Positions 3,446 through 60,885 of a stretch of DNA of 64,000 bases are shown here, piece by piece (the stretch's first letter is position 1; each line of letters opens with the position of its first letter). Position numbers and translations under genes: made by a program. Under the pieces are notes generated by a model. That model was given only the letters and a program-made list of their open reading frames with translations. It had not been told where the DNA came from and made no database searches. Source of the stretch: Catellatospora paridis (GTDB taxonomy: Bacteria; Actinomycetota; Actinomycetes; Mycobacteriales; Micromonosporaceae); assembly GCF_009720365.1 (NCBI RefSeq), contig NZ_ML769315.1, positions 465,621 to 529,620 on the forward strand, written 5' to 3'.

Positions 3446-3530
3446 GCCTACTCCTGGAGGAGAGTCCGGGGCGCGCCGAGACCCCCGTGCCGCGCGGCCT
3501 TGACAGCCGTGCGTCGGCGCGCAAGCCGGA

Positions 3531-3776: not shown

Positions 3777-3898
3777 CCGAACATTGTCTCAGGTCACCGG
3801 CTACCAGCCCAGTCTGATATCCCGCCACGCTGGTAGGAGGCCCGGCCACGGCCGAATGCCCGCGCCCGCACGGCGGGCCTCGACCGCACAGTACTCTC

Positions 3899-4822
3899 AT
3901 GATCGTGACTGATGTGAGCATCCACCTCGGTGCCGAGGTCAAGGCGGCGCTGGCGACCGGGCAGCCGGTGGTGGCGCTGGAGAGCACGATCGTCTCGCAC
4001 GGGCTGCCCCGCCCGGACAATCTGCGGGTGGCCCGCGAGATCGAGCAGGTCGTACGCGACAACGGCGCGGTCCCGGCGACGATCGGCATGGTCGGCGGCA
4101 GGCTGGTGGCCGGGCTGGACGACGAGGCGCTGACCCGCCTGGCAGTCGGCGAGAACGTGGCCAAACTCTCGGTCCGCGACCTGGCCGTCGCGTCGGCGCT
4201 CGGCGTCGACGGCGCGACCACGGTCGCCAGCACCTCGGCGATCGCCGCCGCAGCCGGCATCGGCGTGTTCGCCACCGGCGGTCTGGGCGGCGTGCACCGC
4301 GAGGCCTCGCAGACCTTCGACGAGTCCGCCGACCTGACCACGCTGTCGCAGACGCCGATCGTGGTGGTCTGCGCCGGGGTCAAGTCGATCCTCGACGTGG
4401 GCGCGACCCTGGAGCGGCTGGAGACGTTGGGCGTCGCGGTGGCCGGCTACCAGACGGACCGCTTTCCGGGCTTCTTCATCCGAGACAGCGGGTTCGGCGT
4501 GGACTGGCGGCTGGACAACCCCGAGCAGATCGCCGCGGCCATGCGGGCGCAGCGCGACCAGGGCGTGCACCGCGGCGCGCTGGTGGTGGCCAACCCGCTG
4601 CCGCAGGACGAGCAGCTCGACCAGGACCTGCACGACCGCACGCTGGCCGAGGGCCTGGCGATCGTGGAGCGCGACGGGGTGACCGGCAAGCGGGTGACGC
4701 CGGTGCTGCTGTCGCACTTCCACGCGGCCACGCAGGGGCGGAGCCTGGCCGTCAACGTACGCATCATCCTGCGCAACGCGGCGCTGGCCGCGCAGATCGC
4801 CGTCGCGGCCGGCGACCAGTGA
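3899..4822 (+). CDS. psuG: Pseudouridine-5'-phosphate glycosidase
   Basis: 307 residues, the family length. PsuG cleaves the C-C glycosidic bond of pseudouridine-5'-phosphate to uracil and ribose-5-phosphate. Residues equivalent to the E. coli catalytic set are present: Glu28 in LESTIVSHG, Lys89 in NVAKLSVRD and the Schiff-base lysine Lys162 in CAGVKSILD. FATGGLGGVHR is also characteristic. The stop overlaps the next start (GTGA, 4819-4822), so it is translationally coupled to the pseudouridine kinase. Together the two genes form the complete cytoplasmic pseudouridine degradation pathway. Confidence 0.95.
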   Translation: MIVTDVSIHLGAEVKAALATGQPVVALESTIVSHGLPRPDNLRVAREIEQVVRDNGAVPATIGMVGGRLVAGLDDEALTRLAVGENVAKLSVRDLAVASALGVDGATTVASTSAIAAAAGIGVFATGGLGGVHREASQTFDESADLTTLSQTPIVVVCAGVKSILDVGATLERLETLGVAVAGYQTDRFPGFFIRDSGFGVDWRLDNPEQIAAAMRAQRDQGVHRGALVVANPLPQDEQLDQDLHDRTLAEGLAIVERDGVTGKRVTPVLLSHFHAATQGRSLAVNVRIILRNAALAAQIAVAAGDQ

Positions 4823-5733
4823 TCCTCTCCGTCGGAGACCTGGTCACCGACGTGCTGGCGGTGCTGCGAGCGCCGCTCGCGCAGGGCTCGGACACCCCGG
4901 CGACGGTGCACGTCGCCGGGGGCGGCCAGGCGGCGAACACCGCCGCGTGGCTGGCGGCGCTGGGCGCGCCGGTGACCTTCGTGGGCGCGGTCGGCGACGA
5001 CCAGGCCGGCCGCGACCGGCTGGCCGAGCTGCACCAGGCGGGGGTACGCACCCAGGTGAGCGTGCGCCCCGGGGCCAGCACCGGCAGCATCGTGGTGCTG
5101 ACGCACGGCGGCGAGCGCACGATGATCAGCGATCGGGGCGCGAACCTGCTGCTGGCCTCCAGCGACGTGGACGCCGCGATCGCCCAGGGCGCGTCGCTGC
5201 TGCACCTGTCCGGATACACCCTGCTGGACCAGCCCTCCCGGCCCACCGGGCGGTACGCGCTCGCCTCGGCCCGCGCCGCCGGCCTGCGCACCTGCGTCGA
5301 CGCCGCCTCGGCCGCCCCGCTGTACGCGGTCACCACGGAGCTGATCGAGGACGGGGTCACCGGGCACCCGTTCCTGGACTGGGTGCGCGGGGTGGACCTG
5401 CTGCTGGCCAACGCCGACGAGGCGAGCGCGCTGGCCGGGCCCGGGGAGCCCGCCGACCAGGCACTGCGGCTGTCGTACGCGATCGGCGGCGACGTGGTGG
5501 TGAAGCTCGGCGCGCACGGGGCGCTGTGGGCCGGCCCGGTCGGCGTGGTGCACGTCACCGGCGACCCGGTGCCGATCGTGGACGCCACCGGCGCGGGCGA
5601 CGCCTTCGCCGCGGGCCTGCTGGCAGCCTGGGCCGCCGGGGCCGGGCAGCACGACGCGCTGCTGGCGGGCTGCCGGCTGGGCGCCCGCGCGGTGGGCATC
5701 GTCGGCGCCCGCCCGCCCCTGCCGTCGCCCTGA
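4819..5733 (+). CDS. psuK: PfkB-family kinase, probable pseudouridine kinase
   Basis: A 304-residue PfkB-fold kinase with the substrate loop GGGQAAN (34-40) and the C-terminal DATGAGDAFAAG motif containing the catalytic Asp. The GTG start lies inside the psuG stop (GTGA overlap), which strongly suggests one operon. In known pairs this kinase makes pseudouridine-5'-phosphate, the PsuG substrate. The family is not substrate-diagnostic on its own, so the assignment rests on context. Its tail runs into GC-rich simple sequence after the stop. Confidence 0.85.
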   Translation: MILSVGDLVTDVLAVLRAPLAQGSDTPATVHVAGGGQAANTAAWLAALGAPVTFVGAVGDDQAGRDRLAELHQAGVRTQVSVRPGASTGSIVVLTHGGERTMISDRGANLLLASSDVDAAIAQGASLLHLSGYTLLDQPSRPTGRYALASARAAGLRTCVDAASAAPLYAVTTELIEDGVTGHPFLDWVRGVDLLLANADEASALAGPGEPADQALRLSYAIGGDVVVKLGAHGALWAGPVGVVHVTGDPVPIVDATGAGDAFAAGLLAAWAAGAGQHDALLAGCRLGARAVGIVGARPPLPSP

Positions 5734-5762
5734 CCACACCGCCCACCGCCCGCGCGCCCGCC

Positions 5763-5787
5763 CGGCCGCCCGGCCGCCCGGCCGCCC
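5763..5787. repeat. Short tandem repeat, GGCCGCCC units
   Basis: Three consecutive GGCCGCCC units sit just after psuK. This is simple-sequence DNA directly beside palindromic element A1; it may reflect slippage and has no evident function. Confidence 0.6.
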
Positions 5788-5789
5788 AT

Positions 5790-5866
5790 GATCGTCCGAC
5801 TTGCCTGGCACGTGTGCGTATCTTGAACCCGCTTTCGCCCATGTGCCGGACAAGTCGAGCGATCTT
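5790..5866 (+). repeat. Palindromic element family A, copy A1
   Basis: A 77-bp imperfect palindrome. The left arm GATCGtcCGACTTGCC and right arm (CAAGTCGaGCGATC) fold on each other, with a second matched pair around GGCAC/GTGCC. A nearly identical copy lies inverted at 6402-6479, on the other side of the DUF3099 gene. No coding potential. It resembles REP/MITE-type intergenic elements. Confidence 0.8.
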
Positions 5867-5960
5867 GGCCGCGGTCGGACCGACGCAGGCGCGGCCCGCC
5901 GTCGGCACCGCGCGCGGATGGGGGCAGGATGGAAGAGTTCCCCGGCGATCAGGAGGCATC

Positions 5961-6335
5961 GTGAAACGGCAGGCGGACCGGCCGGCGCTGATCACCGATG
6001 CGGCGGAGAGCCCAGAGGTGGAACTGCGGCGGCGCGAGCGGCGCTACATCGCGATGATGCTGCTGCGCGCGGCGTGCCTGATCCTTGCCTCGGCGCTGGC
6101 CATGCTCCAGGTGCCGCTGCTGTGGCTGTGGCTGCCGCTGTGCGGCCTGGGCATGGTGCTGCTGCCCTGGCTGGCCGTGATCCTGGCGAACGACCGCCCA
6201 CCCAAGGACGAGCACCGCTTCAAGCGCCACCGCCGGCAGACGCTGCCCGCCAACGCCCTGCCCGCCCAGCCCGCCGGCCCGGTCTACGAGGGCACCATCG
6301 ACGACGCCCCCGGCACCCCCGACCGCCCCGCCTAG
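5961..6335 (+). CDS. DUF3099 small membrane protein
   Basis: 124 residues with a GTG start preceded by a perfect AGGAGG at 5951-5956. Two adjacent hydrophobic segments (about residues 30-47 and 49-70, in MMLLRAACLILASALAML and the following LWLWLPL stretch) predict a two-pass membrane protein with both ends cytoplasmic. The basic stretch ANDRPPKDEHRFKRHRR follows. This is the actinobacterial DUF3099 pattern; function unknown. The gene is bracketed by two inverted copies of palindromic element A. Confidence 0.8.
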   Translation: MKRQADRPALITDAAESPEVELRRRERRYIAMMLLRAACLILASALAMLQVPLLWLWLPLCGLGMVLLPWLAVILANDRPPKDEHRFKRHRRQTLPANALPAQPAGPVYEGTIDDAPGTPDRPA

Positions 6336-6401
6336 CCCCACCCCCGGCCCCGCCTCGCGCCAGGCCGCCTCGGCCGACTCGTCGCGCAGTCGGGCCCCCT
6401 C

Positions 6402-6479
6402 AAGATCGCCGACTTGCCGGGCACATGGGCGAAAGTGGGCTCAAGATACGCACAGGTGCCAGGCAAGTCGAACGATCAA
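6402..6479 (-). repeat. Palindromic element family A, copy A2 (inverted)
   Basis: Reverse-complement copy of the element at 5790-5866. Shared landmarks are the outer GATCG/CGATC ends, CGACTTGCC, GGGCGAAAG and CAAGATACGCAC. Differences are mostly compensatory or in the loop. It lies between DUF3099 and the convergent alaX gene, a position where it could also act as a bidirectional terminator. Confidence 0.8.
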
Positions 6480-6525
6480 GGGCCGCCCGCGACGCCCACG
6501 GCGCGGGCCGCGCGGGTGGGCGCGG

Positions 6526-7260
6526 TCAGCTCAGGCGGACCCGGACGCGGCGGTTGGCCTTGCCCTTGGACTCGACCTTGACGACCTGGAGTTTGCCGAT
6601 CTGCGAGGTCGAGGCGACGTGGGTGCCGCCGTCGGCCTGCACGTCCAGACCGACGATGTCGACGATGCGGATCTCCTGCTCGTCGGCCGGGATCAGGTTG
6701 GACTGGGTACGGATGATGTCGGGCAGCGCCAGCGCCTCGTCTCGGCCCAGCACCCGGGTGACGACCTGGCGGTCCGCGCCGACCTCGGTGTTGACCAGCT
6801 CCTCCAGCCGCGCCTTGAAGTCGGCGGGCACCTCGGGCAGGTTGAAGTCCATCCGCGCCTCGCCCGGCTCCATGTTGCCGCCGGTGACCAGCGCGCCGAA
6901 GTCGCGGAACACCACGCCGCACAGCACGTGCAGCCCGGAGTGGGTGCGCATGAGCAGCGTGCGCCGGGTGTCCTCGACCGCGCCGGCGACCTGCGTGCCC
7001 ACGGGCGTCAGCGGGTCACCCTCGGCCGGGATCAGCCACAGGTCGTCACCCTTGCGGGTGCCGGTGATCCGGGTCTGCACGCCCTGCCAGAGCAGCACGC
7101 CGTGGTCCGGCGGCTGGCCGCCGCCGCCCGGGTAGAAGGCCGAGCGGTCGAGCACGATGCCCTGTTCGGCATCGGCGGCCAGCACCGTGCAGGTCCAGTC
7201 GCGCAGGGTCGGGTCGGCTAGGTCCAGGCGCTCGGTGCGCCCGTGGTGTGTGACGCCCAT
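6526..7260 (-). CDS. alaX: Alanyl-tRNA editing protein, AlaX family
   Basis: A 244-residue free-standing editing domain of the alanyl-tRNA synthetase type. The family hydrolyses mischarged Ser- or Gly-tRNA(Ala). FYPGGGGQPPDHG (42-54) and the zinc-binding THSGLH (His107, His111) are intact, and GGTHVAS holds His214. The usual Cys of the CGGTH motif is Asp210 here (QADGGTH). The ATG at 7258-7260 is preferred; an in-frame GTG at 7281 would add seven residues (neither has a strong ribosome site). It follows the large NRPS gene on the same strand after 123 bp of degenerate tandem repeat. Confidence 0.88.
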   Translation of the reverse strand: MGVTHHGRTERLDLADPTLRDWTCTVLAADAEQGIVLDRSAFYPGGGGQPPDHGVLLWQGVQTRITGTRKGDDLWLIPAEGDPLTPVGTQVAGAVEDTRRTLLMRTHSGLHVLCGVVFRDFGALVTGGNMEPGEARMDFNLPEVPADFKARLEELVNTEVGADRQVVTRVLGRDEALALPDIIRTQSNLIPADEQEIRIVDIVGLDVQADGGTHVASTSQIGKLQVVKVESKGKANRRVRVRLS

Positions 7261-7420
7261 GACCGGGAGTCTAGGCGTCACCGGCCGACGCGCGTTCGGC
7301 GACGCGACCGGCGACGTTCATGACCGTAGGGCCAGGCGTCACCGGCCGACGCCGCGCCCGGTGACGCTCATGACCGTGAGGACTTAGGCGTCCCCGCCGG
7401 AGGCGTTGTTCGGCGATGCG
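7259..7420. repeat. Degenerate tandem repeat between nrps and alaX
   Basis: Three units begin at 7259, 7320 and 7370 with ATGACCG and share a core close to AGGCGTCACCGGCCGACG. Unit lengths are about 61, 50 and 50 bp. The array spans the NRPS stop and the alaX start. Likely a local duplication; no function is evident. Confidence 0.55.
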
Positions 7421-10400
7421 ACGGTGCGGGCGGTGACCCGGCCGCCGGCCAGGATCTGCATCATCACGTCCTGGCTCGCGCCGGAGCGGGTGGCGGGACG
7501 CGGCGTGCGGCCCACCGACTTGGCGACCGCGGGACGGACGCCGCGCCCGGCGGGCCTGCGCCCGCGCCGCCCCGTGGGCCGCCGCCGCACCGCGACGGTC
7601 ACCCAGTGCTGCTCGGCGTCGGCGCCCCACTGCTCCTGGTGGAACCAGTAGCGCTGGCGCCCGCTCGGCGCGGTGCCGACCACCTGCAGCGGTTCCAGCA
7701 CGGTGTCCAGCTGTTCGAAGCTGACCTCGCCGTCGTCACCGGCGCAGCGGGTGAAGGCCTCCTTCAGCGTCCACATCCGCAGCAGCTGCTCACCCTGGTC
7801 GTCGGCCTCCATCAGGCGGGCGTGCTCGGCGGCCGACAGCACGGTCCAGGGCAGCGACGCGCCCTCCCGGCCGGCCGGTTCCAGATCCACCCCGATGTCG
7901 TATGCGTCCGAAACCGCCACCGCGATCGCCGAGTCGGTCTGCGACACGCTCACGTCGATGCCGAGCAGCGGCCCGGAGACGGTGAGCTTGCCGAATCCTC
8001 CGTAGTGCAGGCTCCAGTTGCGCGGCGCGACCTCGCCGTGCCACTCGATCGACAGGATCATGCGGACCAGTGCCCGGGTGACGATGAAGGAGCTGCGGCG
8101 CTCGCTCGAGCGCATGCTCTCGGCCTCGGCGCGCTCGGCCGCGCTGAGGAACTGCGCCAGGTCCTTCTCCCGGCGCCGGCACGCGGCCAGCGCGAACAGC
8201 GAGACCGCCACGCCCGCCGGCCGCCGCCGCCGCGGTGCGGGGGTGGCTCGCAGCTCGGTGAGCAGGGCCCGGGCCGCGGCCCGGGAACCGGCCCGGGGAC
8301 CGGACGCGCAGGGCGTGGGCCGGGTCCGGCGCGGTGCCGCGGGCAGCGGCTCGCACACCTGCCGGGCCGGGTTGCCGGTCCAGTCCTCGCCGTCGGGGAT
8401 CTGCTCGCCCTTCATCAGGAACGAGTGCGCGCCGACCACCGCGTCCTCGCCGACGGTGACGCCGTAGTGCACGAACGCCTTGACGCCGAGAGTGGCGCCG
8501 GAGCCGATGACGGTCGGCTCGGACCGGAACATGCCGTCCTCCTGGGAGTGGCACTGGATCACCACGCCGGAGTTGAGGCAGGCGTCGTCGCCGATGGTCA
8601 TCATGGTCCGTTCGGACATGTAGGCGCCGTCGTCGTACACCCGCTTGCCCATCTTGACGCCCAGCAGCCGCCACATGATCGGCCGGAACGGGGTGCCCGC
8701 GAACGGGACCGGCGCCTCCAGCTTCCACAGCCGCTCGTGCCACCAGTAGTACGGGTCGTAGATGGAGCAGCGTCGTGGGCGCAGCCGCCGGAATCCGCCG
8801 ACCAGCCGCTCCACCAGCACGCTGTAGCACAGCTGGAACACCAGCATGACCACCATCGCGGCCGGGATGACCAGCACGCTCCACTCGGAGTAGTTGTCCA
8901 GCGCGGCGGCGAGCACCACCAGGCCGACGGCCGCCGACAGCCAGCTCACGAACAGGAACCAGGCCATCGAGCGCAGGTTGTACCGGTTCTTCATGGTCAG
9001 CGCGCGGCGCAGCGCGTCACCGGTGGGCGCCTCGCAGCCGGCCTCCCGGGCCACGACCCGGGCGATCGGGAACGACGGCGAGCCGAGCAGGCCGCTGTCG
9101 TAGCGGATCGGGCCGTCGGTGGGCACCGTCGCCTTGGTCGCGTAGAGCACGTTCTGGCCGACGGCGTGGTCGGCCGGGAAGGTGACGTCGTTGCCGACGA
9201 AGGAGCGTGCGCCGATGGCGACCCGCGACATCTTGAACGAGGTGGGCGAGTAGTCGGCGTTCACCATGGACAGGCCGTCGGACACCATGGTGCCGGTGCC
9301 GATGGTGCACAGGAACGGCGAGTCGAACCGGAACTCGATGCCGAAGTTGGACCCGGTCTGCACGACCTGCTGCAGGTCGACGCCGATCCAGCGCAGGTAG
9401 TTCACGACGTACGAGCTGTCGCCGAACAGGCGCATGAACAGCGCGGAGTTGGTCATGCCGGAGATCGTCGAGGCGAGCCAGTACCGGAAGCTGTAGAGCG
9501 GGTAGACCGTGTCCGGCTTCCAGAGCAGGTTGAGCAGGCGCGGGATGACCACGATGGAGGCCAGGCCGGTCAGCAGCGCGATCACGAAGAGCACCGCCGA
9601 GGCCAGCACCAGGTCCAGGTAGATCATGCTGCTGATGGTGAACGGCTTGCGGTCGACCAGGCCGCGCAGCATCGGCACCTGGGTGACCAGCGCGACCAGC
9701 GCGCCGAACACCAGCGGGCCGCGGGTGAGCACCTGGTTGGCGATCTTGACGCCGGAGTAGACCGTCTTGCGCAGCCAGCCGCAGCTGCGGGCGGGGACCG
9801 CCGGCAGTCCGGGGTGGCCGGGCTGGGCGGGCATGCCCTGCCAGCTCTCCCCGGCCGGCACCACGTAGCCGGGGGGCAAGGTCGAGGAGTGCCCGAGCCG
9901 CGCGCCGTCGCCGATGGTGGAGTTGATGTCCAGCGCGGTGTGCTCGCCGACGATCACGTCGCTGCCGATGGTGATCCGGCCGGTCTGGATGTAGCCGGAC
10001 TGGGCGCGGTAGCCCATGAAGTAGCAGTCCTTGCGGATGACGGTGTTGTCGCCGATCGTCAGCAGGTCGGTGCAGATCGGCATGACCGGCGACAGGATCA
10101 CCACGTTGCGGCCGATCCTCGCACCGAGCAGGCGCAGGTACCACGGGTACAGCGGGGTGCCGTAGAACATCAGCAGGCGGCTGGCGCCCATGCACATGCG
10201 CACGTACCAGAAGCGCAGGTATTTCAGCCCCCACAGGGGTATCTCCTGCTCCTTCCACCGCCCGATGAGCAGCCATTTCATCGCGATCGGGTAGATGGTC
10301 AGGATCAGGAAGCCGGTGATGCTGAACGCCGCCGAGCGCAGGTACAGGTCGAGGTAGCCGTTGGCGGCGGCCATGAAGCGGAACGCGAAGATGAGCAGGA

Positions 10401-12519: not shown

Positions 12520-12548
12520 CCGGCGCGCCGTGGCAGGCGGCGCGCCGG
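12520..12548 (-). promoter_or_regulatory. Hairpin in the dat-nrps intergenic region
   Basis: Perfect 10-bp arms CCGGCGCGCC and GGCGCGCCGG around a 9-nt loop, between the dat stop and the NRPS start. It could attenuate read-through and set the dat:NRPS ratio, or stabilise mRNA ends. No T-run follows. Confidence 0.5.
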
Positions 12549-12589
12549 TCAGCCGCATTCGGTCGGGGCGCCTCTCGGCGCGCCGGTGC

Positions 12590-14011
12590 TCAGCCCATGC
12601 CGTCCGCTCCCGCGCGTGCGCTCGCCGGCTCGTCCGCCTCGGCGCCCGGGCGGCACGACTCCTCGATGGCGTCGATGACGATGCCGCAGGCGATGTCGAC
12701 GACCTCGGCGGTCACGTTCAGCGGCGGCAGGATCCGGATGACGCAGTCGTCGCGCCCGCCGAGTTCGACGATCAGACCGCGGCGCAGGGCACGGGCCTGC
12801 ACCTGACGGGCCAGCTGCCCGGCCGAGCGCCCGTCGCCGGGGTCGGCCAGCTCCACGCCCCACATCAGGCCTCGGCCGCGCACCTCGCGCACCACCGGGT
12901 GGCCTTGCAGTTCGGCGAAGCGGTCGGCCACCTGCGCCCCGCGCTCGCGCACGTTGGCCAGGATCTGGTCGCGGTGCAGGATCCGGACCGCCTCCGCCCC
13001 CGCGGCGAAGGCGAGCTGGTTGCCCCGGAAGGTGCCGGTGTGCGCGCCGGGCTGCCAGACGTCCAGCCGCTCGTCGTACATGATCAGCGCGACGGGCGTG
13101 CCGATGCCGGACAGCGCCTTCGACGCGACGATCACGTCGGGCTCGATGTCGTACTGCTCGAACGCGAACCAGGTGCCGGTGCGGCCGCACCCGGTCTGCA
13201 CCTCGTCGACGATCAGCGGGATGTCCAGCGACCGGGTCAGCGCCCGCACCCGCCGGACGAAGTCACGCGTGGCCGGGATGACCCCGCCCTCGCCCTGCAC
13301 CAGCTCCAGGATGACCGCGGCGGGACGCGCGACGCCGCCGTTCGGGTCGAGCAGCGACTTCTCCAGCAGCCCGGCGCAGTTGGTCTCGCAGCTGTCCGGT
13401 CGCAGACCCAGCGGGCAGCGGCCGCAGTACGAGTACGGGAAGAAGTGCACGCCCGGCATGCCGTTGGCGATCGGGCGCTTCTGCGAGACCAGCCCGGACA
13501 TGGCCATCGCGGCGGAGCTGCCGCCGTGGTAGCCGCCCTGGAACGAGACGATGTCGCCGCGGCCGGTGGCGGTCTTGCACAGCTTGATCGCGGCCTCGAT
13601 GGCGTTGGCTCCGGTCGGGCCGCAGAAGTGCACGCGCATGCGTTCACGCAGGCCAGGGGCCAACATTGACAGCTGGGCCTCGATGAACTCGTCCTTGGCG
13701 GGGGTCGGGAAGTCCAGCGCGTGGGTCAGCCGGCCCAGCTGGGACGTGACCACCCGCACCAGCTCGGGGTGGTTGTGGCCGAGTGACAGCACGCCCGCGC
13801 CGGTCAGGAAGTCGATGAACACATTGCCGTCGACATCGCGCACGAAGCTGCCGGAACCCTCGGCGATGGCGATCGGGATGTTGCGGGGATAGGTACGCGC
13901 GTTGGACTCGCGGCGCTGCTGGCGCTCCAGCAGCTCGGCCGAACGTGGTCCGGGCAGGTCGCAGTGGACGGACGGCCCGGTCAATGCGTCAGGCTCGCTG
14001 AGCATCGTCAT
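12590..14011 (-). CDS. dat: Diaminobutyrate--2-oxoglutarate aminotransferase (class III, PLP)
   Basis: A 473-residue class III aminotransferase. The [18 protein letters not shown] opening, [16 protein letters not shown], the tryptic-like cysteine stretch [17 protein letters not shown] and the PLP lysine in [12 protein letters not shown] are typical of L-2,4-diaminobutyrate transaminases (Dat/EctB/RhbA group), which make L-Dab from aspartate-4-semialdehyde and glutamate. No ectA or ectC is nearby, arguing against ectoine synthesis. It lies 163 bp upstream of the Pls-type NRPS on the same strand, so it most likely supplies Dab monomer for that enzyme. The ATG start is preceded by a GAGGAG-type site (TGAGGAGAACC). 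Confidence 0.88.
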
Positions 14012-16675: not shown

Positions 16676-16722
16676 AGGAAGGGCACCTTCTTAACGCTTA
16701 GCGTTAAGAAGGTGCCCTTCCT
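16676..16722. repeat. Palindromic element family C, copy C1 (perfect 47-nt hairpin)
   Basis: Perfect 23-bp arms (AGGAAGGGCACCTTCTTAAC followed by GCT, and its complement) around one unpaired base. Related copies lie at 53737-53793 and 61011-61058. Followed 26 bp later by element D1. It could also terminate the MFS gene. Confidence 0.85.
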
Positions 16723-53736: not shown

Positions 53737-53793
53737 GCGTTAAGAAGGTGCCCTTCCTCCACCTATGGCGATGTGAACGTGCCCTTCCTTCAG
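53737..53793. repeat. Palindromic element family C, copy C2 (degenerate)
   Basis: GCGTTAAGAAGGTGCCCTTC followed by CT (53737-53758) is identical to the right arm of C1; the right part (CGATGTGAACGTGCCCTTCC) resembles C3. Overlaps the last codons of the ebo-like operon. Confidence 0.65.
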
Positions 53794-55178
53794 GACAGGC
53801 CGGCCAGGCGGAGGAGGAGGGGTTTTACTTCGGTGGCGGTGAAGGCTTCACGTCGGGCGGTGGGGTCGGAGCAGATCAGGAGGGGGCCGTCGGCGGGGTC
53901 GGCGGGCAGGCGGCCGTGGGAGCCGCGGACGGCGCGGGCTCCGGCGTCGAGGCCGACCACGTTCATCAGGTAGCGCATGCCGGCCTTCTTGCGGAGCAGG
54001 GCGGCGGCGGCGCGGCGCTTGGCGGCGGCGGGGGCGGCGGGGTCGAAGAACAGCTCGGCGGGGTCGTAGCCGGGCTTGCGATGGATCTCGACCAGGCGGG
54101 CGAAGTCGGGGGCCTTGGCGTCGTCGAGCCAGTAGTAGTACGTGAACCAGGCGTCCGGTTCGGCGACCAGCACGAGTTCGCCGGAGCGCGGGTGGTCGAG
54201 CCCGTGGGCGGCCTTGCCCGCGTCGTCGAGCACCTGGGCCACCCCGGGCAGGTTCGCGCAGATCTTGGCGACGACGGCCCGGTCGGCCGGGTCGGCCACG
54301 TAGACGTGGGCGATCTGGTGGTCGGCGACGGCGAAGGCCCGCGAGGTCCACGGATCGAGGTATTCCATGCCGGCCTGGGTGTGCACGCGCAGCAGGCCCT
54401 CGGCGCGCAGCGCCCGGTTGACGTCCACGGGCCGGCGCACCGGCGTGATGGCGTACTCCGACAGTGCCACCACCGTCGCCCCGCGCGCGTCGGCAGCGTC
54501 GAGCAGCGGGCCGAGCACGTCGTCGAGTTCCCGCGCGGCGACGGCGGCCTCGGGGCCGTACGGGCCGAAGCGCTGCAGGTCGTAGTCGAGGTGCGGCAGG
54601 TAGACCAGGGTGAGGTCCGGGGAGTGCGCGGACATGATGTGCCTGGCGGCGGCCGCGATCCAGCGCGTCGAGGCGATGCCCGCCCCCGGCCCCCAGAACT
54701 GGAACAGCGGGAACGTGCCCAGCTCGGCGGTTAGCGCGTCGTGCAACTGCGGCGGGTCGGTGTAGCAGTCGGGCTCCTTGCGCCCGTCGGCGCGATACAC
54801 CGGCCGCGGCGTGACGGTCCAGTCGACGTCCGCGCCCATGGCGTACCACCAGCAGACGTTGGCGACCGTGTAGCCGGGGCGGGCCTTGCGCGCGGCCTGC
54901 CACACCTTCTCGCCGCCGACCAGCGCGTGGTGCTGCCGCCACAGCAGCACCTCGCCGAGATCGCGGAAGTACCAGCCGTTGCCGACGATCCCGTGCTGGG
55001 CCGGCAGCACTCCGGTGAGCAGGGTCGACTGGGCTGAGCAGGTGACCGCGGGCAGCACCGTGCCCAGCGGGGCGGCGAAACCGGCGTCGGCGACGGCCCG
55101 CAGCCGGGGCATGTGCTCCAGCAGGCAGGGGGTCAGCCCGACGACGTCGAGCACGACCACCGGGGTCACGGTGTCCAC
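53790..55178 (-). CDS. Alkaline-phosphatase-superfamily phosphodiesterase/nucleotide pyrophosphatase (ebo operon)
   Basis: 462 residues from GTG 55178 with CAGGAGG upstream; overlaps the eboE-like stop by 13 nt. VVVLDVVGLTPCLLEHMPRL opens the family core; metal/nucleophile Thr region in PAVTCSAQSTLLTGV, HGIVGNGWYF, YLPHLDYDLQRFG, SEYAITPV and DHQIAHVYV supply Asp/His ligands. It should hydrolyse phosphodiester or pyrophosphate bonds of a small metabolite. Last gene of the six-gene leftward operon; EboF-like position. Cytoplasmic by sequence (no signal peptide). Confidence 0.87.
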   Translation of the reverse strand: MDTVTPVVVLDVVGLTPCLLEHMPRLRAVADAGFAAPLGTVLPAVTCSAQSTLLTGVLPAQHGIVGNGWYFRDLGEVLLWRQHHALVGGEKVWQAARKARPGYTVANVCWWYAMGADVDWTVTPRPVYRADGRKEPDCYTDPPQLHDALTAELGTFPLFQFWGPGAGIASTRWIAAAARHIMSAHSPDLTLVYLPHLDYDLQRFGPYGPEAAVAARELDDVLGPLLDAADARGATVVALSEYAITPVRRPVDVNRALRAEGLLRVHTQAGMEYLDPWTSRAFAVADHQIAHVYVADPADRAVVAKICANLPGVAQVLDDAGKAAHGLDHPRSGELVLVAEPDAWFTYYYWLDDAKAPDFARLVEIHRKPGYDPAELFFDPAAPAAAKRRAAAALLRKKAGMRYLMNVVGLDAGARAVRGSHGRLPADPADGPLLICSDPTARREAFTATEVKPLLLRLAGLS

Positions 55179-56383
55179 GGGCGGACCTCCTGCAGTTCCA
55201 TCGTGCTCAGCGGTGCGGCGGGACCGCTCGGTGTCATCCCGAGCGCGATCAGCTCGTCGCGGGCGAAGGCCAACTCCGCCGCGATGCCCGAGGCCAGCTG
55301 CGCGGGCGTGACCGGCCGCTGCGCCTGGGGCAGCACGTTCCAGGTGTACGTCTCCACGTCGACGTGGTCGCAGCCCGCGGTCGGCCCGCCGAACAGCTCC
55401 TTGAGCGCCACTCGCAGCTCGGGCAGGGTGCTGCCGAGTGGCGCGGCCGGTTCGGCGTGCAGCGGCACGTGGTAGTGCACCCGCCACGGCTGCGGGGTGC
55501 GGCGCGGGCGCGGCAGCAGCCGGTCCAGGGCCTCGCCGAGGTCGTCGGCGGCCTCGCCGCGCGAACCGCGGGTCTGGTGCAGGAAGCGGGGCTCGTCGTA
55601 GCCGCGCAGCACGGCCTGTGCGGCGACCGGGTCGTCGGCGGTCAGCGCCGCGGAGACCTGCACCTTCATCACCGGCAGCCCGGCCCGGGCGAGCCGGGCC
55701 AGCGCCGCGGCGGGCTCCTCCCAGGCACAGGCCAGGTGCGCGAGGTCGAGGCATACGCCCAGCCAGTCGCCGTCCATGCCGGACCACAGCCGGGCGGCCT
55801 GCTCGGTGGTCTCGACCACGCAGCCGGGTTCGGGCTCGAAACCGACCTGCACGGTGCGCCCGGTGCGACCGGCGATGGCCGCCAGGCCGTCGGCCAGCTC
55901 GTCCAGCACCCGACCGGCGGTCCCGGCGCGTTCGGTGTCCCAAGGCTCGCGCCAGGCGAGCGGAAGCGTGGAGATCGAGCCACGCACCGCGTCGTCGGGC
56001 AGCAGGTCGGCCAGCACCACGGCCAGGTCCAGGGTGTAGCGCAGCCGCTCCGGGGTGGTCCAGTCCGGGTGGTACACCGCGTGCTTGACGACCTCGGCCT
56101 GGAACGACTGGTACGGGAAGCCGTTGAGGGTGACCACCTCCAGCCCACGGAAGTCCAGCTCACGCCGCAGCCGGCGGCGCAGGTGCGGCTCGGCGGCCAG
56201 CGCGGACGCCGCGGGCGCGGCCAGCCACAGGCCCAGCCCCAGCACCTCGGCGTCCAGCTCGCGCCGGATGGCCGTGCCGTACGTGTCGAGCTGCGCCACG
56301 ATGCCGTCGAGGTCCTCGGCCGGGTGCACGTTGGTGCAGTAGCTCAGGTGCACCGTCTGCCCGTCGGCATGCGCCAGCCGCAT
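55166..56383 (-). CDS. eboE: EboE-type metabolite traffic protein, TIM-barrel
   Basis: 405 residues, ATG 56383 overlapping the upstream stop (TGATG). MRLAHADGQTVHLSYCTNVH and HPAEDLDGIVAQLDTY are the EboE opening. A xylose-isomerase-type barrel follows with GFEPEPGCVVETTEQ and CLDLAHLACAWEEP carrying metal-site Glu/Asp/His, then LHQTRGSRGEAADDLGEAL and PLHAEPAAPLGSTLPELRVA. In cyanobacteria the ebo cluster is needed to move scytonemin precursors to the periplasm. The partner set here is similar. Confidence 0.85.
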   Translation of the reverse strand: MRLAHADGQTVHLSYCTNVHPAEDLDGIVAQLDTYGTAIRRELDAEVLGLGLWLAAPAASALAAEPHLRRRLRRELDFRGLEVVTLNGFPYQSFQAEVVKHAVYHPDWTTPERLRYTLDLAVVLADLLPDDAVRGSISTLPLAWREPWDTERAGTAGRVLDELADGLAAIAGRTGRTVQVGFEPEPGCVVETTEQAARLWSGMDGDWLGVCLDLAHLACAWEEPAAALARLARAGLPVMKVQVSAALTADDPVAAQAVLRGYDEPRFLHQTRGSRGEAADDLGEALDRLLPRPRRTPQPWRVHYHVPLHAEPAAPLGSTLPELRVALKELFGGPTAGCDHVDVETYTWNVLPQAQRPVTPAQLASGIAAELAFARDELIALGMTPSGPAAPLSTMELQEVRPWTP

Positions 56384-57231
56384 CAGGCGCCACCCCGCTT
56401 GATCGAATTCCCGGCGAAGTCGGCGGGCGAGTCGGCGTCCGACAGGTCCAGCCGCCCGGACTGGCCGTAGAACTCGACCGGGTTGCGCCACAGCACCCGG
56501 TCCACGTCGTCCGCGCCGAACCCGGCCGCGAGCATCGCCTCGCCGGTGCGCCGGGTCAGCAGCGGGTCGGAGCGGCCCCAGTCGGCCGCGGAGTTGACCA
56601 GCATGCGCTCGGTGCCGTGGCGGCGCAGCAGCTCGACCATGCGCGGCGGCGACATCTTGGTGTCCGGGTAGATCGAGAAGCCCAGCCAGCAGCCGGTGTC
56701 GCGGACCAGCTCCACGGTCACCTCGTTGAGGTGGTCGATCACCACCCGGCCCGGGTCGATCCCGGACTCCTTCACCACGTCCAGGCTGCGCTGCGTGCCG
56801 CGGACCTTGTCCCGGTGCGGCGTGTGCACGAGCGCCGGCAGGTCGAACTCGACCGCCAGTGCGAGCTGCGCCGCGAAGGCGATGTCCTCCAGCGGGGTCA
56901 TCGAGTCGTACCCGATCTCGCCGACCGCGACCACCGCGTCCTTGTCCAGGTAACGCGGGACCAGTTCGAGCACCTCGCGGCAGCGCGGGTCGTTGGCCTC
57001 CTTCGGGTTCAGCGCGATGGTGGCGTGGTGGCGGATGCCGAACTGCCCGGCCCGGAACGGCTCCCAGCCGATCAGCGCGTCGAAGTAGTCGGCGAACGAA
57101 CCGGGGCTGGTGCGCGGTTGGCCGAGCCAGAACGCCGGCTCGACCACGGCGCGCACCCCGGCGGCCGCCATCGCCTCGTAGTCGTCGGTGGTGCGTGAGG
57201 TCATGTGCACGTGCGGGTCGAAGATGCGCAT
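56383..57231 (-). CDS. eboB: TatD-family metal-dependent hydrolase, EboB-like
   Basis: 282 residues from ATG 57231 (MRIFDPHVHMTSRTTDDYEA). The HVH dimetal motif, AVGEIGYDSMTP (Glu), LVHTPHRDK and VIDHLNEVT (His ligands) and NSAADWGRSDPL (Asp) are present. An amidohydrolase-fold enzyme. TGATG overlaps at both ends fix its place in the operon. Substrate unknown. Confidence 0.87.
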   Translation of the reverse strand: MRIFDPHVHMTSRTTDDYEAMAAAGVRAVVEPAFWLGQPRTSPGSFADYFDALIGWEPFRAGQFGIRHHATIALNPKEANDPRCREVLELVPRYLDKDAVVAVGEIGYDSMTPLEDIAFAAQLALAVEFDLPALVHTPHRDKVRGTQRSLDVVKESGIDPGRVVIDHLNEVTVELVRDTGCWLGFSIYPDTKMSPPRMVELLRRHGTERMLVNSAADWGRSDPLLTRRTGEAMLAAGFGADDVDRVLWRNPVEFYGQSGRLDLSDADSPADFAGNSIKRGGA

Positions 57232-58739
57232 CAGATCCCCTTCTCTGCTTTGAGGCGGGCCAGCAGCGCCGCCGCGTCGGCCGGCAGCTCGCGCCCGGCG
57301 GCGTGGCGCTCGTCGGCGACCCCGGCCAGCATCGCGGCGAGCTCGCTGTCGGCCCGGTGGTCGAGGTCGTCCACGCAGGACAGCGCGATGCCCATGAACA
57401 CGCACTTGACCACCGCCTGCCGCCAGGCGGCCGCGTCCAGGTGCGCGGCGTACGGCCCCAGCGCCGCGGCGACGAGCCGGGTGTCGTTGGTGCGGATCGC
57501 GTCGTGCAGCAGCTCCACCGCGCTCGCGCCGACCGGCAGCAGCGGCAGCGCGCGCAGCACGGCCCGCTTCTCGGCCGCGTCGCCGTGCCGGTAGAGCGCG
57601 CGGGCCTGCACCGCCGCGCGTTCGGCGGGCAGCATGGCCAGCAGCACCGCACGGGCCGCCTCGTCTGCGGTCCAGCCGGGCAGGACCTCGGCGCGCCCGC
57701 AGCGGCGGGCCGCGGCCGGGAACAGTCGGCTGATCACGGACGGGTCGGCGGCCACCCGGCGCAGCGCCTCGTCCAGCCACCCGCCGTCGTCCACGCCGGC
57801 CAGCGCGGCACGCAGCACCTCGGGCGCGGGCACCGCCCCGGCCGGGCGGCGCTGCCCCGGGGCACGCATGCCCGGCGCGGCGGCGGACCGGTCGGTCGCG
57901 GTGCCGGACTGCCCCGCCGCGGCGCGCAGGAAGGTGAGCGAGCGGCGCGCCACGTCCGGCGCCGCGTGCGAGTGCCGGGGCAGCTCCACCCCGACCAGGC
58001 CGCGGTATCCGGCGTCGGCCAGCGCCCGCAGCACCGGCGGGAAGTCGATCTCGCCTTCGCCGAACTCCAGGTGCTCGTGCACCCCCCGGCGCATGTCCTC
58101 GATCTGCACGTTGACCAGCCACGGCGCGGCCGCCACGACGCAGTCGGCGACCGGCTCCGGCTCCAGGCAGCGGCAGTGCCCGAGGTCGAGGGTCAGCCCG
58201 AACGCGCGCGGCATGCCCAGCGCCCGGTGCAGCGTCCGCCAGCCGGACAGGTCCTGCACGAACATGCCCGGCTCCGGCTCGAAGCCGACCGGCACGCCCG
58301 CCTTGGACGCCGCCTCGGTCAGCCGGGCGCAGCCGTCGACCAGCCGGTCCCAGGCCAGCTGCGCGTCGACCGCCGGCGGGCGCACCCCCGACCAGCACGA
58401 CACGGCCTCCGCGCCCAGGTCGGACGCGATCGACACGGCGCGCAGCAGGAAGTCCAGCCGCACCTCGCGCTCGTCGTGCAGCAGCGTGGGCGCGTGCTTG
58501 CGGCGCGGGTCGAGCAGGTAGCGCGCGCCCGTCTCGACCACCACGGACAGGCCCAGTTCCATCAGCCGGGTGGCCAGGCCGGAGACCCGGCGGGCCAGGC
58601 CCGGGGCGTACGGGTCGAGGTGGTGGTGGTCGAGGGTGAGCGCGACGCCGTCGTAGCCGAGGTCGGCGAGCACGGCCAGCGCGTCACTGAGGCGGTGGTT
58701 GGCGAAGCCGTTGGTGCCGTACCCGAAGCGCAGGTTCAT
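57231..58739 (-). CDS. Sugar phosphate isomerase/epimerase barrel fused to an EboA domain
   Basis: 502 residues from ATG 58739 (MNLRFGYGTNGFANHRLSDA). The first ~275 residues are an xylose-isomerase-type barrel (YDGVALTLDHHHLDPYAPG, GFEPEPGMFVQDL, LTLDLGHCRCLEPEP, VQIEDMRRGVHEHLEFGEGE with His/Glu ligands). A Pro/Ala linker (about 285-310) leads to an EboA-like helical domain (WTADEAARAVLLAMLPAERA, VELLHDAIRTNDTRLVAAAL, CVFMGIALSCVDDLDHRADS). ATGA overlap with the UbiA gene. A fusion of two ebo-type roles. Confidence 0.85.
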   Translation of the reverse strand: MNLRFGYGTNGFANHRLSDALAVLADLGYDGVALTLDHHHLDPYAPGLARRVSGLATRLMELGLSVVVETGARYLLDPRRKHAPTLLHDEREVRLDFLLRAVSIASDLGAEAVSCWSGVRPPAVDAQLAWDRLVDGCARLTEAASKAGVPVGFEPEPGMFVQDLSGWRTLHRALGMPRAFGLTLDLGHCRCLEPEPVADCVVAAAPWLVNVQIEDMRRGVHEHLEFGEGEIDFPPVLRALADAGYRGLVGVELPRHSHAAPDVARRSLTFLRAAAGQSGTATDRSAAAPGMRAPGQRRPAGAVPAPEVLRAALAGVDDGGWLDEALRRVAADPSVISRLFPAAARRCGRAEVLPGWTADEAARAVLLAMLPAERAAVQARALYRHGDAAEKRAVLRALPLLPVGASAVELLHDAIRTNDTRLVAAALGPYAAHLDAAAWRQAVVKCVFMGIALSCVDDLDHRADSELAAMLAGVADERHAAGRELPADAAALLARLKAEKGI

Positions 58740-59755
58740 GTGGCCGAGATCCTCCGGACCAGGCACCGGGCCAGCGGCGCGAGAGCGGCGAGGGCGAGCC
58801 CGGTGAGCCCGGCCCCGGTGCGGGCGGCCAGTGTGCCCTGCAACGTGGGCAGGCAGGTGATGCCCGAGCCGACGGCGGCGCGGACCCGGGCCGCGTCAGG
58901 CTGCGCGGCGGCACGGGCCTGCGTCCGGCCGTAGTGGGTGAGATACCAGCCCGCCAGCGCCACGGGCAGCACGGCCCGCCAGCCCTTGGCGCGGGTTGCC
59001 CCGGCCGCCGTCGCGGCGACGGCGACCGTGCCGGCCAGCGTGGCCACCGGAAGCTTCGCGTCCGCGCCGGACACCTCGCGTCGCGACAGCGCCGTGACGG
59101 TGTACGTGTGCGCGGCGACGGTCAGCGCCGCGGGCACCGCCTTCGCGGCCCGTCCGGTCGACGCGCCGAGCAGCACGTCCAGGCCCCGGCAGGCGGCCAT
59201 CACGGCGGGACCGGCCGCGGTGTTCTTGGCCTTCACGTCGTACGCCCACACCGTGGCGGCCAGCGGCACCGCCGTGGCCAGGCCGCGGCGGCCGCCCGCC
59301 CACGCGGCCAGGCCCACCCCGGCGGCGGTGAGCCCGGCGGCCAGGCCGAGCGCGGTCCGGGGCGACACCCGCCCGCTGGGGATCGGCCGCTCCGGCCGCT
59401 CGACGGCGTCGAGCTCCCGGTCGGCCCAGTCGTTGGCCGCCATGCCCGCCCAGTACAGGCACACCGACGCCGCCGCGAGCCCCGGCGTGCGCCGGTTCAG
59501 CGTTCCCGCGGCGGCCGCCCCCGCGATCACGTCCCCGGGCACCGACAGCGCCGCAGGAGCACGCACCAGCTCCGCGAGGTCACCCAGCACAGCCGGCCAC
59601 GGGCGGCGGCCATGTCCCGCGACCACGGGGAGCCGCCCGGTGTCCGCCTGGCGCGGGACAACCCGCCGGGCGGTGACGCGGCGGCCCTGGGCGGCGCGCA
59701 GGGCGCGGGCGGCGGGCAGCGCCGCGGCGCGCTGCGCCTCGGTCAGCGCGGTCAC
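58736..59755 (-). CDS. UbiA-family prenyltransferase, SCO3242-type (EboC-like)
   Basis: 339 residues, seven to nine hydrophobic segments. First Asp-rich motif NDWADRELDAVERPERPIPS (prenyl-diphosphate/Mg2+ site); the second site is reduced to YDVKAKN. UbiA enzymes join isoprenoid chains to acceptors in the membrane. GTG start overlaps the inositol-phosphate-synthase stop (GTGA). Its operon partner set matches the S. coelicolor SCO3242-SCO3243 neighbourhood as I recall it. Confidence 0.85.
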   Translation of the reverse strand: MTALTEAQRAAALPAARALRAAQGRRVTARRVVPRQADTGRLPVVAGHGRRPWPAVLGDLAELVRAPAALSVPGDVIAGAAAAGTLNRRTPGLAAASVCLYWAGMAANDWADRELDAVERPERPIPSGRVSPRTALGLAAGLTAAGVGLAAWAGGRRGLATAVPLAATVWAYDVKAKNTAAGPAVMAACRGLDVLLGASTGRAAKAVPAALTVAAHTYTVTALSRREVSGADAKLPVATLAGTVAVAATAAGATRAKGWRAVLPVALAGWYLTHYGRTQARAAAQPDAARVRAAVGSGITCLPTLQGTLAARTGAGLTGLALAALAPLARCLVRRISAT

Positions 59756-60885
59756 GCCATTCCCTCGACCATCCGGACCAGCGCGTCGAACTGGGCGGTC
59801 AGCCCGTGCTCGACGTCGCCGAGCGGGTCCTTGAAGAAGAACGCCAGCTCCGACAGCGGGCCGCTGCGCCCGGCGCGGTGCGCGGCGGCGGTGAGCCGGA
59901 CGAGGTCCAGCACCAGCGGGGCGGCCAGCGCCGAGTCGCAGCCGTGCCAGCTGAACTCCATCCGCATCGCGGTGCCGAGGAACCCGCGGAAGGTGATCAG
60001 GTCCCAGGCGGTCTTGAACTCGCCCAGGTCCTCGACGTACTCGATGCGGGTCTCACCCTGCGGCGTGTAGCCCAGCGTCTCGGCCAGCACCCGCTGCTTG
60101 CTGGCCGCCTTGGCGGCGTTCGGCGCGGGCTGCGACAGGTTGGCCCCGTCACCGCCGCCGAGCAGGTTGGCGCCCGACCAGCTGCGCACGTCGAGCGCCC
60201 GCATCGCGAACATGGGCGCGAGCACCGACTTGACCAGGGTCTCCCCCGTCTTGCCGTCGTGCCCGGCGTACGGCACGCCGCGCTCGTACGCCAGCTGCGA
60301 CAGCGCCGGCAGCCGGGCTCCGGTGGACGGGGTGAAGTCGACGAACGAGCACCCGGCGGTGAACGCCGCGTACGCGTACAGCGAGCTGGGCGGCAGCACC
60401 GGCACCGGCCCCCGCAGGGCCTCCCGCAGCACGTCGAGGGCGGCATGCGCCTCGTGCGGCTCGGCGGCGGGCTCCGTGGACGACACGTTGACGACCACCA
60501 CCCGGCCGAGTTCGTGGCGCCGGCGGAAGTCGTCGACGTCGGCGGCGATGAGCGCGGCGGTCTCCGCCTGGGTCGCCCCACGTGGCGCGGGGCGCACCTC
60601 GGCGTCGAGCTCGGCGAGTTCCGACTGCAGGGCGGTCACCAGGCGGCCGGGCAGCACGCCCGCGGCCGCGAGTGCGTCCGCCTTCTTGAGGATCGGGGTG
60701 GCGATCACGTCGTGCCCGCCGAACACCAGGTCGGCCAGGCTCGGCAGCTGCGGGCCGCGCAGTTGCGGCAGTTCCGTGACACAGCCGGTGGGCTCGGCGA
60801 GCCCCGCGCGCAGCGCGACGGCTCCGACCATGCTCGTGACGGCGACCGACCCCCGCCCGCCGACCAGCCAAACACCTGTTCGCAT
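59752..60885 (-). CDS. Inositol-3-phosphate synthase-like, first gene of ebo-like operon
   Basis: 377 residues. Rossmann motif WLVGGRGSVAVTSMVGAVAL for NAD+; VVVVNVSSTEP, AGHDGKTGETLVKSVLAPMF and SWHGCDSALAAPLVLDLV are family blocks that hold the catalytic lysines. Ino1 enzymes cyclise glucose-6-phosphate to myo-inositol-3-phosphate. Only one of a possible set; this version sits in an ebo context, so it may cyclise another sugar phosphate. Leads the operon; a short promoter region with TTGATTTC-like AT-rich DNA lies upstream. Confidence 0.88.
   Translation of the reverse strand: MRTGVWLVGGRGSVAVTSMVGAVALRAGLAEPTGCVTELPQLRGPQLPSLADLVFGGHDVIATPILKKADALAAAGVLPGRLVTALQSELAELDAEVRPAPRGATQAETAALIAADVDDFRRRHELGRVVVVNVSSTEPAAEPHEAHAALDVLREALRGPVPVLPPSSLYAYAAFTAGCSFVDFTPSTGARLPALSQLAYERGVPYAGHDGKTGETLVKSVLAPMFAMRALDVRSWSGANLLGGGDGANLSQPAPNAAKAASKQRVLAETLGYTPQGETRIEYVEDLGEFKTAWDLITFRGFLGTAMRMEFSWHGCDSALAAPLVLDLVRLTAAAHRAGRSGPLSELAFFFKDPLGDVEHGLTAQFDALVRMVEGMA

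Follow-up and report, generated by a model that had tools for sequence, protein, structure and literature searches.

The ebo genes (eboA-F) are found in cyanobacteria, Bacteroidota and eustigmatophyte plastids. EboD of this system is sedoheptulose-phosphate-cyclase-like, and Yurchenko et al. proposed that it makes a cyclitol which is then prenylated, with EboC in that role (PMC5133447); the word "inositol" is absent from the main text of that paper. Klicki et al. reported that the ebo genes are required for scytonemin production in Nostoc, where the scytonemin monomer remained cytoplasmic in ebo mutants, and took it to mean that the monomer is translocated to the periplasm (PMC6282210). An EboC-type enzyme farnesylates quinoline-like aromatic substrates, with 8-HQA as the best one (PMC9235831). 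No ebo product is named in the available portions of PMC5133447, PMC6282210, PMC9235831 or PMC3610822. In this study, we analysed a 64-kb stretch of the Catellatospora paridis genome (the window) which contains a six-gene ebo-like operon led by a gene for a homologue of inositol-3-phosphate synthase (Ino1). We consider it probable that this is an Ino-type ebo operon, in which EboD has been exchanged for an archaeal-type inositol-3-phosphate synthase and a TIM-barrel isomerase, together with a matching UbiA subtype in Actinomycetota and Gemmatirosa.

Like the described ebo clusters, the operon is tightly packed and encodes EboA, EboB, EboE, EboF and a UbiA-family counterpart of EboC. Unlike them, it contains no EboD, and it has instead Ino1 and an extra TIM-barrel protein, a UbiA of the SCO3242 subtype, and an isomerase fused to EboA. 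The marks of ebo membership that were found are EboE, the EboA domain (where EboG may stand instead in other clusters), an EboB of the ebo clade and a PF01663-type EboF, whereas EboD was looked for and not found; thus, the operon is classed as an Ino-type variant and not as canonical ebo, whether eboABCDEF or its eboG form.

Several other systems resemble parts of it. The Ino1-like protein has the same two Pfam domains and the same eight catalytic residues as Ino1 of Archaeoglobus fulgidus (1u1i) and the archaeal/Bacteroidota-type synthases, but differs from them in its operon context and, in the actinobacterial rows, in a changed loop, and it is not a mycothiol-type Ino1. The NCBI UbiA family of the operon protein is named after SCO3242 of Streptomyces coelicolor. 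SCO3242 and SCO3243, which bear neighbouring numbers, are a putative transferase and a myo-inositol phosphate synthase, a likeness drawn from the gene numbers and the family name, and are treated as genes of the CDA cluster, not of ebo (PMC3610822). The BE-40644 pathway likewise combines a cyclitol-making enzyme with UbiA-family farnesylation, but there the cyclitol is made by a sedoheptulose-phosphate cyclase (EEVS), and the UbiA is not EboC (PMC5133447). Ino1 relatives also occur in non-ebo clusters on Roseomonas, Methylobacterium and Hymenobacter plasmids (L149, L153, L264 and L263), with a member of the isomerase (iso) family 4-6 kb away; these loci differ in having no ebo profile matches, YcaO and Gfo/Idh/MocA genes are annotated between the two in L149 and L263, and the four may represent an undescribed biosynthetic cluster. 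No description of an Ino1-type ebo operon was found among the papers listed by full-text searches of open main texts.

Exchange of EboD for Ino1 and an isomerase

The original prediction, made from the window alone, placed the Ino1-like protein in the slot of EboD and pointed to mutual exclusion of the two genes across ebo clusters as a way of checking this. Of 396 genomes sampled from the phylum, 18 had EboE above cut-off, as had 90 of 394 sampled from the class (the draws overlap), and up to 20 kb was fetched around 19 places of the phylum draw and around 80 of the class draw, a part of the class matches. The best 80 EboF loci of a species collection, taken from a larger number of matches to an EboD-type query, 16 plasmid loci, the window and a second operon copy of the same genome (on contig C20) brought the total to 197 loci. 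By profile searches, 94 are ebo loci with ino1, 77 have eboD and 24 have neither; two further ino1 loci (L148 and L149) are without ebo genes and were left out of the 94. In none of the 197 loci do ino1 and eboD occur together at any reported score, as mutual exclusion predicts. The iso TIM-barrel is present at 80 bits or more in 90 of the 94 Ino-type loci, three of these calls (haloarchaea) resting on a profile seeded with haloarchaeal sequence, and in none of the 77 EboD-type loci. Thus, it was by the pair of Ino1 and iso, not by Ino1 alone, that EboD was replaced.

The same is seen at the level of whole genomes. EboE matches were obtained in 19 actinobacterial genomes, of which 18 have no match of EboD strength to the dehydroquinate (DHQ) synthase family; their best matches are at most 144.7 bits, taken as AroB level, and the incomplete genome G318 has no match to this family at all. 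The sole match of EboD strength (G381, 421.5 bits) belongs to a genome whose ebo operon (L042) has eboD and no ino1, on a 46-kb contig of a 110-contig assembly, where misbinning is possible. In C. paridis, re-examination confirmed that EboD is absent from the operon and the window, and a DHQ-synthase search of the whole genome gave matches on contigs C26 and C17 only. The former is AroB, and the latter, which is weak and adjoins a CDP-alcohol phosphotransferase gene, is better described as a member of the iron-type alcohol dehydrogenase family, so that no EboD was found in the genome. An EboD gene elsewhere, which according to the original prediction would have spoken against it if co-regulated with the operon, was therefore not found.

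Ino-type operons were found in Actinomycetota (90 of 94), on three haloarchaeal plasmids (Halobaculum, Halocatena and Natronococcus) and on a plasmid of Gemmatirosa (Gemmatimonadota). Trees of EboB, UbiA and EboF were made from 54, 52 and 53 census rows, respectively, with 10 random actinobacterial Ino-type rows and the others chosen. As judged from these sequences, the exchange of EboD for Ino1 is polyphyletic and occurred more than once: the EboB tree contains at least three changes between Ino and EboD types, and a single clade of all Ino-type EboBs was rejected by 478 log units (p-AU 2e-80).

One operon, that of Gemmatirosa (L145), is of mixed ancestry. Its EboB groups with the EboD-type proteins of L042, Deinococcus and Thermomicrobiales (support 82; enclosing branches 96 and 99), its placement with the actinobacterial Ino-type rows being rejected by 220 log units (p-AU 5e-41), and its EboF falls among Myxococcota and Pseudomonadota proteins of EboD type (support 88-89). 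The UbiA of this operon clusters with the actinobacterial Ino types (support 85, not starred, on a long end branch), and placement with the EboD-type relatives of its EboB was rejected (p 0.019). This UbiA scores 172.5 bits against the SCO3242 model and 135.6 against EboC; the corresponding values for the L042 UbiA are 86.4 and 97.9. The genes ubi, ino and iso are adjacent in Gemmatirosa, as in Actinobacteria (order ino, ubi, iso). The operon is a mosaic, for which the swap of a functional ubi-ino-iso cassette appears to be the simplest reading. Taken together, the exclusion, the genome survey (18 of 19) and the polyphyletic switch give good support to the place of the Ino1-like protein in the EboD slot.

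Some observations weigh against this interpretation. The samples are biased, since 90 of the 94 Ino-type loci are actinobacterial (86 from the genome draws and four from Streptomyces plasmids) and most of the EboD-type loci derive from the best 80 EboF matches to an EboD-type query, and the trees were built rapidly, with SH-aLRT as their sole measure of support. The ebo Ino1s do not form one clade; those of haloarchaea cluster with two Ino1s of haloarchaeal non-ebo loci, so that recruitment took place more than once. Haloarchaeal UbiAs group with EboD-type UbiAs (support 80), and the one scanned scores slightly better to EboC (177.7 bits) than to SCO3242 (169.9), so that no UbiA swap is apparent in haloarchaea. 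Their two TIM-barrels were counted as iso by a profile built from one of them, and the EboE profile calls no EboE in haloarchaeal loci, for which "ebo" is thus used loosely. In addition, both cyclases are lacking from some ebo loci. L039 and L194 lack ino1 and are second copies, the other copy in the same genome having the gene; L198 holds only a fragment; the fourth haloarchaeal operon, that of Haladaptatus (L140), has neither cyclase within the fetched stretch; and in L228, also without either cyclase, a levoglucosan-dehydrogenase-like gene (12525-13703, minus strand) occupies the ino1 slot.

The other loci counted as having neither cyclase are EboF-only or EboF-plus-EboE loci or short or cut contigs (L066, L071, L073, L097, L110, L116, L136, L202, L233 and L234), loci without eboD in the fetched stretch (L114 and L132), EboE-only loci (L215, L244, L247, L256 and L257, with the variant L258) and a degraded or partial locus (L056, classed with L198). 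The five EboE-only loci have EboE above cut-off and no other ebo profile match, and EboE of L244 adjoins genes for an E1-dehydrogenase, a transketolase-type protein, a zinc alcohol dehydrogenase and an M24 peptidase. L258 and further places of group f91 carry a shorter EboE variant (about 172-192 bits, covering the first 242 profile positions), present in a number of genomes that belong to one family. The slot gene of L228 is of Gfo/Idh/MocA type, with levoglucosan dehydrogenase as the nearest family (373 bits, under the cut-off of 650). The haloarchaeal plasmid operons (L137, L140, L146 and L147) encode EboB, two TIM-barrels, UbiA and EboF, and three of the four have ino1.

The Ino1-like protein and its partner enzymes

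The closest solved structure to the Ino1-like protein is A. fulgidus Ino1 (1u1i, E 9.5e-69). The eight positions which we take to be the catalytic residues of this enzyme, with their letters checked against the sequence, are D225, N255, D261, K274, K278, K306, D332 and K367; they are kept in all 94 ebo Ino1s and are identical also in the other Ino1s aligned. N255, K278 and K367 are seen as changed letters in aligned mutant chains of the solved structure. The operon protein thus has what is expected of an inositol-3-phosphate synthase, namely both domains and the catalytic lysines, aspartates and asparagine. Because these residues are retained in 94 of 94, ordinary inositol-phosphate chemistry with an inositol phosphate as the product is most likely.

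The operon protein is distant from the usual actinobacterial enzyme. It scores 32.9 bits against the mycothiol-type model TIGR03450, far from the cut-off of 638, and is separated from the resident mycothiol-type Ino1 by a very long branch (more than 3 changes per column), which suggests that it was probably not derived from the resident gene. By N255 and D261, the catalytic loop reads N-[LIV]-L-GGG-D in all 90 actinobacterial rows, NILGDYD in A. fulgidus, and NILGN.D in the other four ebo Ino1s and the plasmid archaeal/Bacteroidota-type Ino1s compared, in a comparison that left out the mycothiol-type, C11 and Arthrobacter rows.

The 9.0-Mb genome contains four Ino1-family genes. In addition to that of the window operon, there is a canonical mycothiol-type gene on C12, adjoining a PadR-family gene, a shorter Ino1-like gene on C11, and one on C20, which belongs to a second, complete six-gene copy of the operon (L007, C20:62000-76000; 2759-9385) with local identities of 57 to 82 percent to the window copy. 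The operon gene as the only inositol source of the genome can be rejected, given the canonical gene on C12. It had been proposed that a second Ino1 would mark the operon gene as redundant for plain inositol synthesis. Such genes do exist, but they argue in the opposite direction, because the C12 gene already covers plain inositol synthesis and the operon protein is very distant from it.

The operon (53790-60885) consists of six leftward genes in translational overlap at every junction, and its coordinates and junctions as first described proved correct when the window sequence was read again (Table 1). The ubiA start codon overlaps the ino1 stop (GTGA), the junction of ubiA and isomerase-eboA is ATGA, those on either side of eboB are TGATG each, and eboE and eboF overlap by 13 nt from the first GTG of eboF or by 4 nt from the second. 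In 78 loci the genes were called in the order ino-ubi-iso-eboA-eboB-eboE-pde, which argues against a chance arrangement. The isomerase-EboA fusion is a minority form, present as a single open reading frame in 7 of 91 loci with both genes called; its occurrence in Actinobacteria was noted by Yurchenko et al. as data not shown (PMC5133447).

Table 1. Genes and domains of the C. paridis operon, with positions in the window
Feature	Position	Strand	Family or profile
Ino1-like sugar-phosphate cyclase, first gene, 377 aa	59752..60885	-	Pfam NAD_binding_5 + Inos-1-P_synth
UbiA-superfamily prenyltransferase, SCO3242 family, EboC counterpart, 339 aa from GTG	58736..59755	-	NF045897, 381.6 bits (cut-off 260)
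Isomerase-EboA fusion	57231..58739	-	PF01261 (AP_endonuc_2) + NF035938
Iso part of the fusion (extra TIM-barrel isomerase)	about 57840-58739	-	PF01261
EboA domain of the fusion	about 57252-57749	-	NF035938, 147.2 bits (cut-off 50)
EboB, TatD-like metal-dependent hydrolase, 282 aa	56383..57231	-	PF01026 (TatD_DNase)
EboE, TIM-barrel protein, 405 aa	55166..56383	-	NF035939, 412.9 bits (cut-off 250)
EboF, NPP/alkaline-phosphatase-fold protein, non-canonical metal site, 462 aa	53790..55178	-	PF01663 (Phosphodiest)

In contrast to its score against the SCO3242 family model, the UbiA protein gives only 146.7 bits against the EboC model (cut-off 250), with its prenyl-binding motifs kept. The EboA domain scores 72.7 against a narrower EboA family model (cut-off 320), EboB aligns and groups with ebo EboBs in the tree, and EboF is 56% identical to the EboD-type EboF of L042 and 52% to that of Calothrix. 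The motif positions N/D/D/D/R of UbiA are kept in 93/93 Ino-type and 73/73 EboD-type rows, seven candidate metal or active-site positions of EboB do not vary among 94 Ino-type or 74 EboD-type rows, and five of seven positions checked in iso, a relative of hydroxypyruvate isomerase and IolO/IolE, are invariant in 93/93 rows. Since these positions are invariant, the three proteins are probably active enzymes.

The predicted structure of EboA is all-helical (pLDDT 97.5), with no solved chain below E 0.36; its best structural matches include artificial HEAT-like helical repeats, and none is clear. Such a helical model would suit the role of scaffold suggested in PMC6282210. EboF is predicted to have the fold of nucleotide pyrophosphatases/phosphodiesterases (NPP; pLDDT 87.6), with Xanthomonas NPP as the best structural match. 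When compared with what are presumably the zinc ligands of NPP, the histidine of DxxxH is replaced by Q in 184 of 187 rows and by L in three, the aspartate-histidine pair of SDHG is E-Y in 187/187 rows, and a V aligns with the first aspartate ligand of the Xanthomonas enzyme, while the threonine and one aspartate of the site are retained. With these replacements, which are found in both ebo types, an ordinary two-zinc phosphodiesterase is doubtful, and the label "phosphodiesterase" is not safe at face value for either type.

A repeat, GAAGGGCACCTTCTTAAC, is present as an inverted pair at 16.7 kb of the window (16678-16720) and as one copy just downstream of the operon (53739-53756). Its 17-base core, AAGGGCACCTTCTTAAC, has 38 exact copies in the genome, compared with none of the reversed control.

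Neighbouring genes and a probable sugar-oxidation link

The flanks of 85 of the 86 actinobacterial genome loci (the window left out) were clustered by single linkage, so that a cluster may join unlike proteins. Members of one cluster of large proteins, an example of which has GSDH, PKD, CBM6, ThuA and 3-keto-disaccharide-hydrolase domains, were found at 53 of the 85 loci, and members of a cluster exemplified by a TIM-barrel protein with a Tat-like leader at 33. Sugar ABC, ROK and Gfo/Idh/MocA-like genes also recur around the actinobacterial Ino-type loci. When the GSDH/ThuA example was used in a direct search, matches were obtained at 56 of 86 actinobacterial loci compared with 9 of 77 EboD-type loci. 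A match lay within 7 kb of the ebo EboE gene in 21 of 25 chosen genomes (the exceptions being G150, G712, G597 and G268), against a chance expectation of about 0.6 genomes from the matches per genome and a 20-kb span; the 25 genomes had been picked after this neighbour was seen in the flank clustering, and one is the source of the query. Within the 64-kb window the example has no match, and in C. paridis it is the C20 copy of the operon, not the window copy, that has sugar-dehydrogenase/ThuA-like matches close by.

Oxidative genes were also seen near other loci. A GSDH-plastocyanin protein is encoded near the ebo locus of Natronococcus, and a pyrroloquinoline quinone (PQQ) dehydrogenase near that of Salipiger (EboD type). 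On two Streptomyces plasmids (L139 and L144), the Ino-type operon has a ScyD/ScyE-family gene immediately upstream of it, and a gene for a multicopper oxidase follows downstream. ScyE-like neighbours did not prove to be general, being found at four Ino-type loci and one EboD-type locus among those scanned. Likewise, GSDH neighbours carry little weight as a feature of EboD-type loci; the few matches there are uninformative because GSDH-family genes are present in 32 of 34 genomes with these loci, often 10 or more of them in Bacteroidota. Judging from the neighbours, the operon is probably tied to sugar oxidation outside the cell, which in actinobacteria would be carried out by secreted enzymes.

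A bolder proposal is that ebo, in its EboD and Ino1 forms alike, makes a cyclitol-derived, probably aromatised, prenylated quinone-like lipid which acts as an electron carrier for extracytoplasmic oxidations. The targets of such a lipid would be secreted GSDH- and PQQ-type sugar dehydrogenases, multicopper oxidases and the dimerisation of scytonemin, and, if the proposal is true, the apparent traffic of a metabolite would be the supply of a redox lipid. The neighbours described above (GSDH/ThuA in 21 of 25 genomes, GSDH-plastocyanin, PQQ dehydrogenase, and ScyD/ScyE with multicopper oxidase) speak for it, as do the farnesylation of quinoline-like aromatics by an EboC-type UbiA (PMC9235831) and the cyclitol-to-farnesyl precedent of BE-40644 (PMC5133447). 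However, the scytonemin monomer that stays cytoplasmic in Nostoc ebo mutants fits export better (PMC6282210), and GSDH matches occur at so few EboD-type loci, with none in the window, that we regard the proposal as speculative and improbable.

Alternative explanations and biological meaning

The distribution of the two operon forms might reflect phylogeny only, each being an old form kept in its own lineages, with Ino1 and EboD not functionally equivalent. The preponderance of Actinomycetota among the Ino-type loci and the strong clustering by type in the EboB, UbiA and EboF trees would agree with this, but the type changes on the EboB tree, the Gemmatirosa Ino1 on an EboD-type EboB and EboF background, and L042, an EboD-type locus without ino1 in the same phylum (albeit possibly misbinned), make it an unlikely account. 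A different possibility is that the Ino1-like protein has come to act on another substrate, for example sedoheptulose 7-phosphate or fructose 6-phosphate, with a product of the kind that EboD makes. There is a low but appreciable chance that this is so, in view of the GGG loop of all 90 actinobacterial rows and of 6k96, an enzyme of the wider family that forms a different ring and that we take to be a five-membered-cyclitol-phosphate synthase using fructose 6-phosphate; it is at odds with the retention of all eight catalytic residues checked, with the ordinary loop of the haloarchaeal and Gemmatirosa ebo Ino1s, and with an ordinary Ino1 as the nearest solved enzyme.

The neighbouring genes could also be read as a sign that the operon acts in the catabolism of oxidised (3-keto) sugars and not in biosynthesis. 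GSDH, ThuA, 3-keto-disaccharide hydrolase, secreted TIM-barrel, sugar-binding, ROK and Gfo/Idh/MocA-like neighbours, the TIM-barrel and amidohydrolase-type enzymes within the operon, and the E1-dehydrogenase and alcohol dehydrogenase genes next to the stand-alone EboE of L244 would all suit such a route. Yet a UbiA prenyltransferase and a cyclase fit catabolism poorly, no such neighbour match is present in the window, and Nostoc required ebo to produce scytonemin (PMC6282210), so that we think a catabolic role improbable. Least credible is that ino1 supplies inositol phosphate for general use and that its position is incidental. Its catalytic residues are indeed those of an ordinary Ino1, but the overlap of the ubiA start codon with the ino1 stop, the canonical Ino1 gene elsewhere in the genome, and an association kept across phyla and two domains and never seen with eboD make this very unlikely.

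If EboD has been exchanged for Ino1 and the isomerase as we favour, Ino1 would turn glucose 6-phosphate into inositol phosphate with its own NAD, as its conserved catalytic residues suggest. The TIM-barrel and TatD-like enzymes would then remodel the cyclitol, and the UbiA enzyme, judging from its family and motifs, would prenylate it. EboA may serve as a helical scaffold, and EboF, as a non-canonical protein of NPP fold, may act in a late step. The product would serve a process outside the cytoplasm, in actinobacteria probably the oxidation of sugars by secreted enzymes.

The ebo genes are widespread in bacteria and some algal plastids, and ebo-like operons are found here on haloarchaeal plasmids as well. 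That EboD has been exchanged for Ino1 and an isomerase, once together with the prenyltransferase, suggests that these operons share a cyclitol as building block and that the UbiA enzyme is the next to use it, which narrows the kind of ring molecule with which the ebo pathway starts. The neighbouring genes, in turn, suggest which physiological process is involved.

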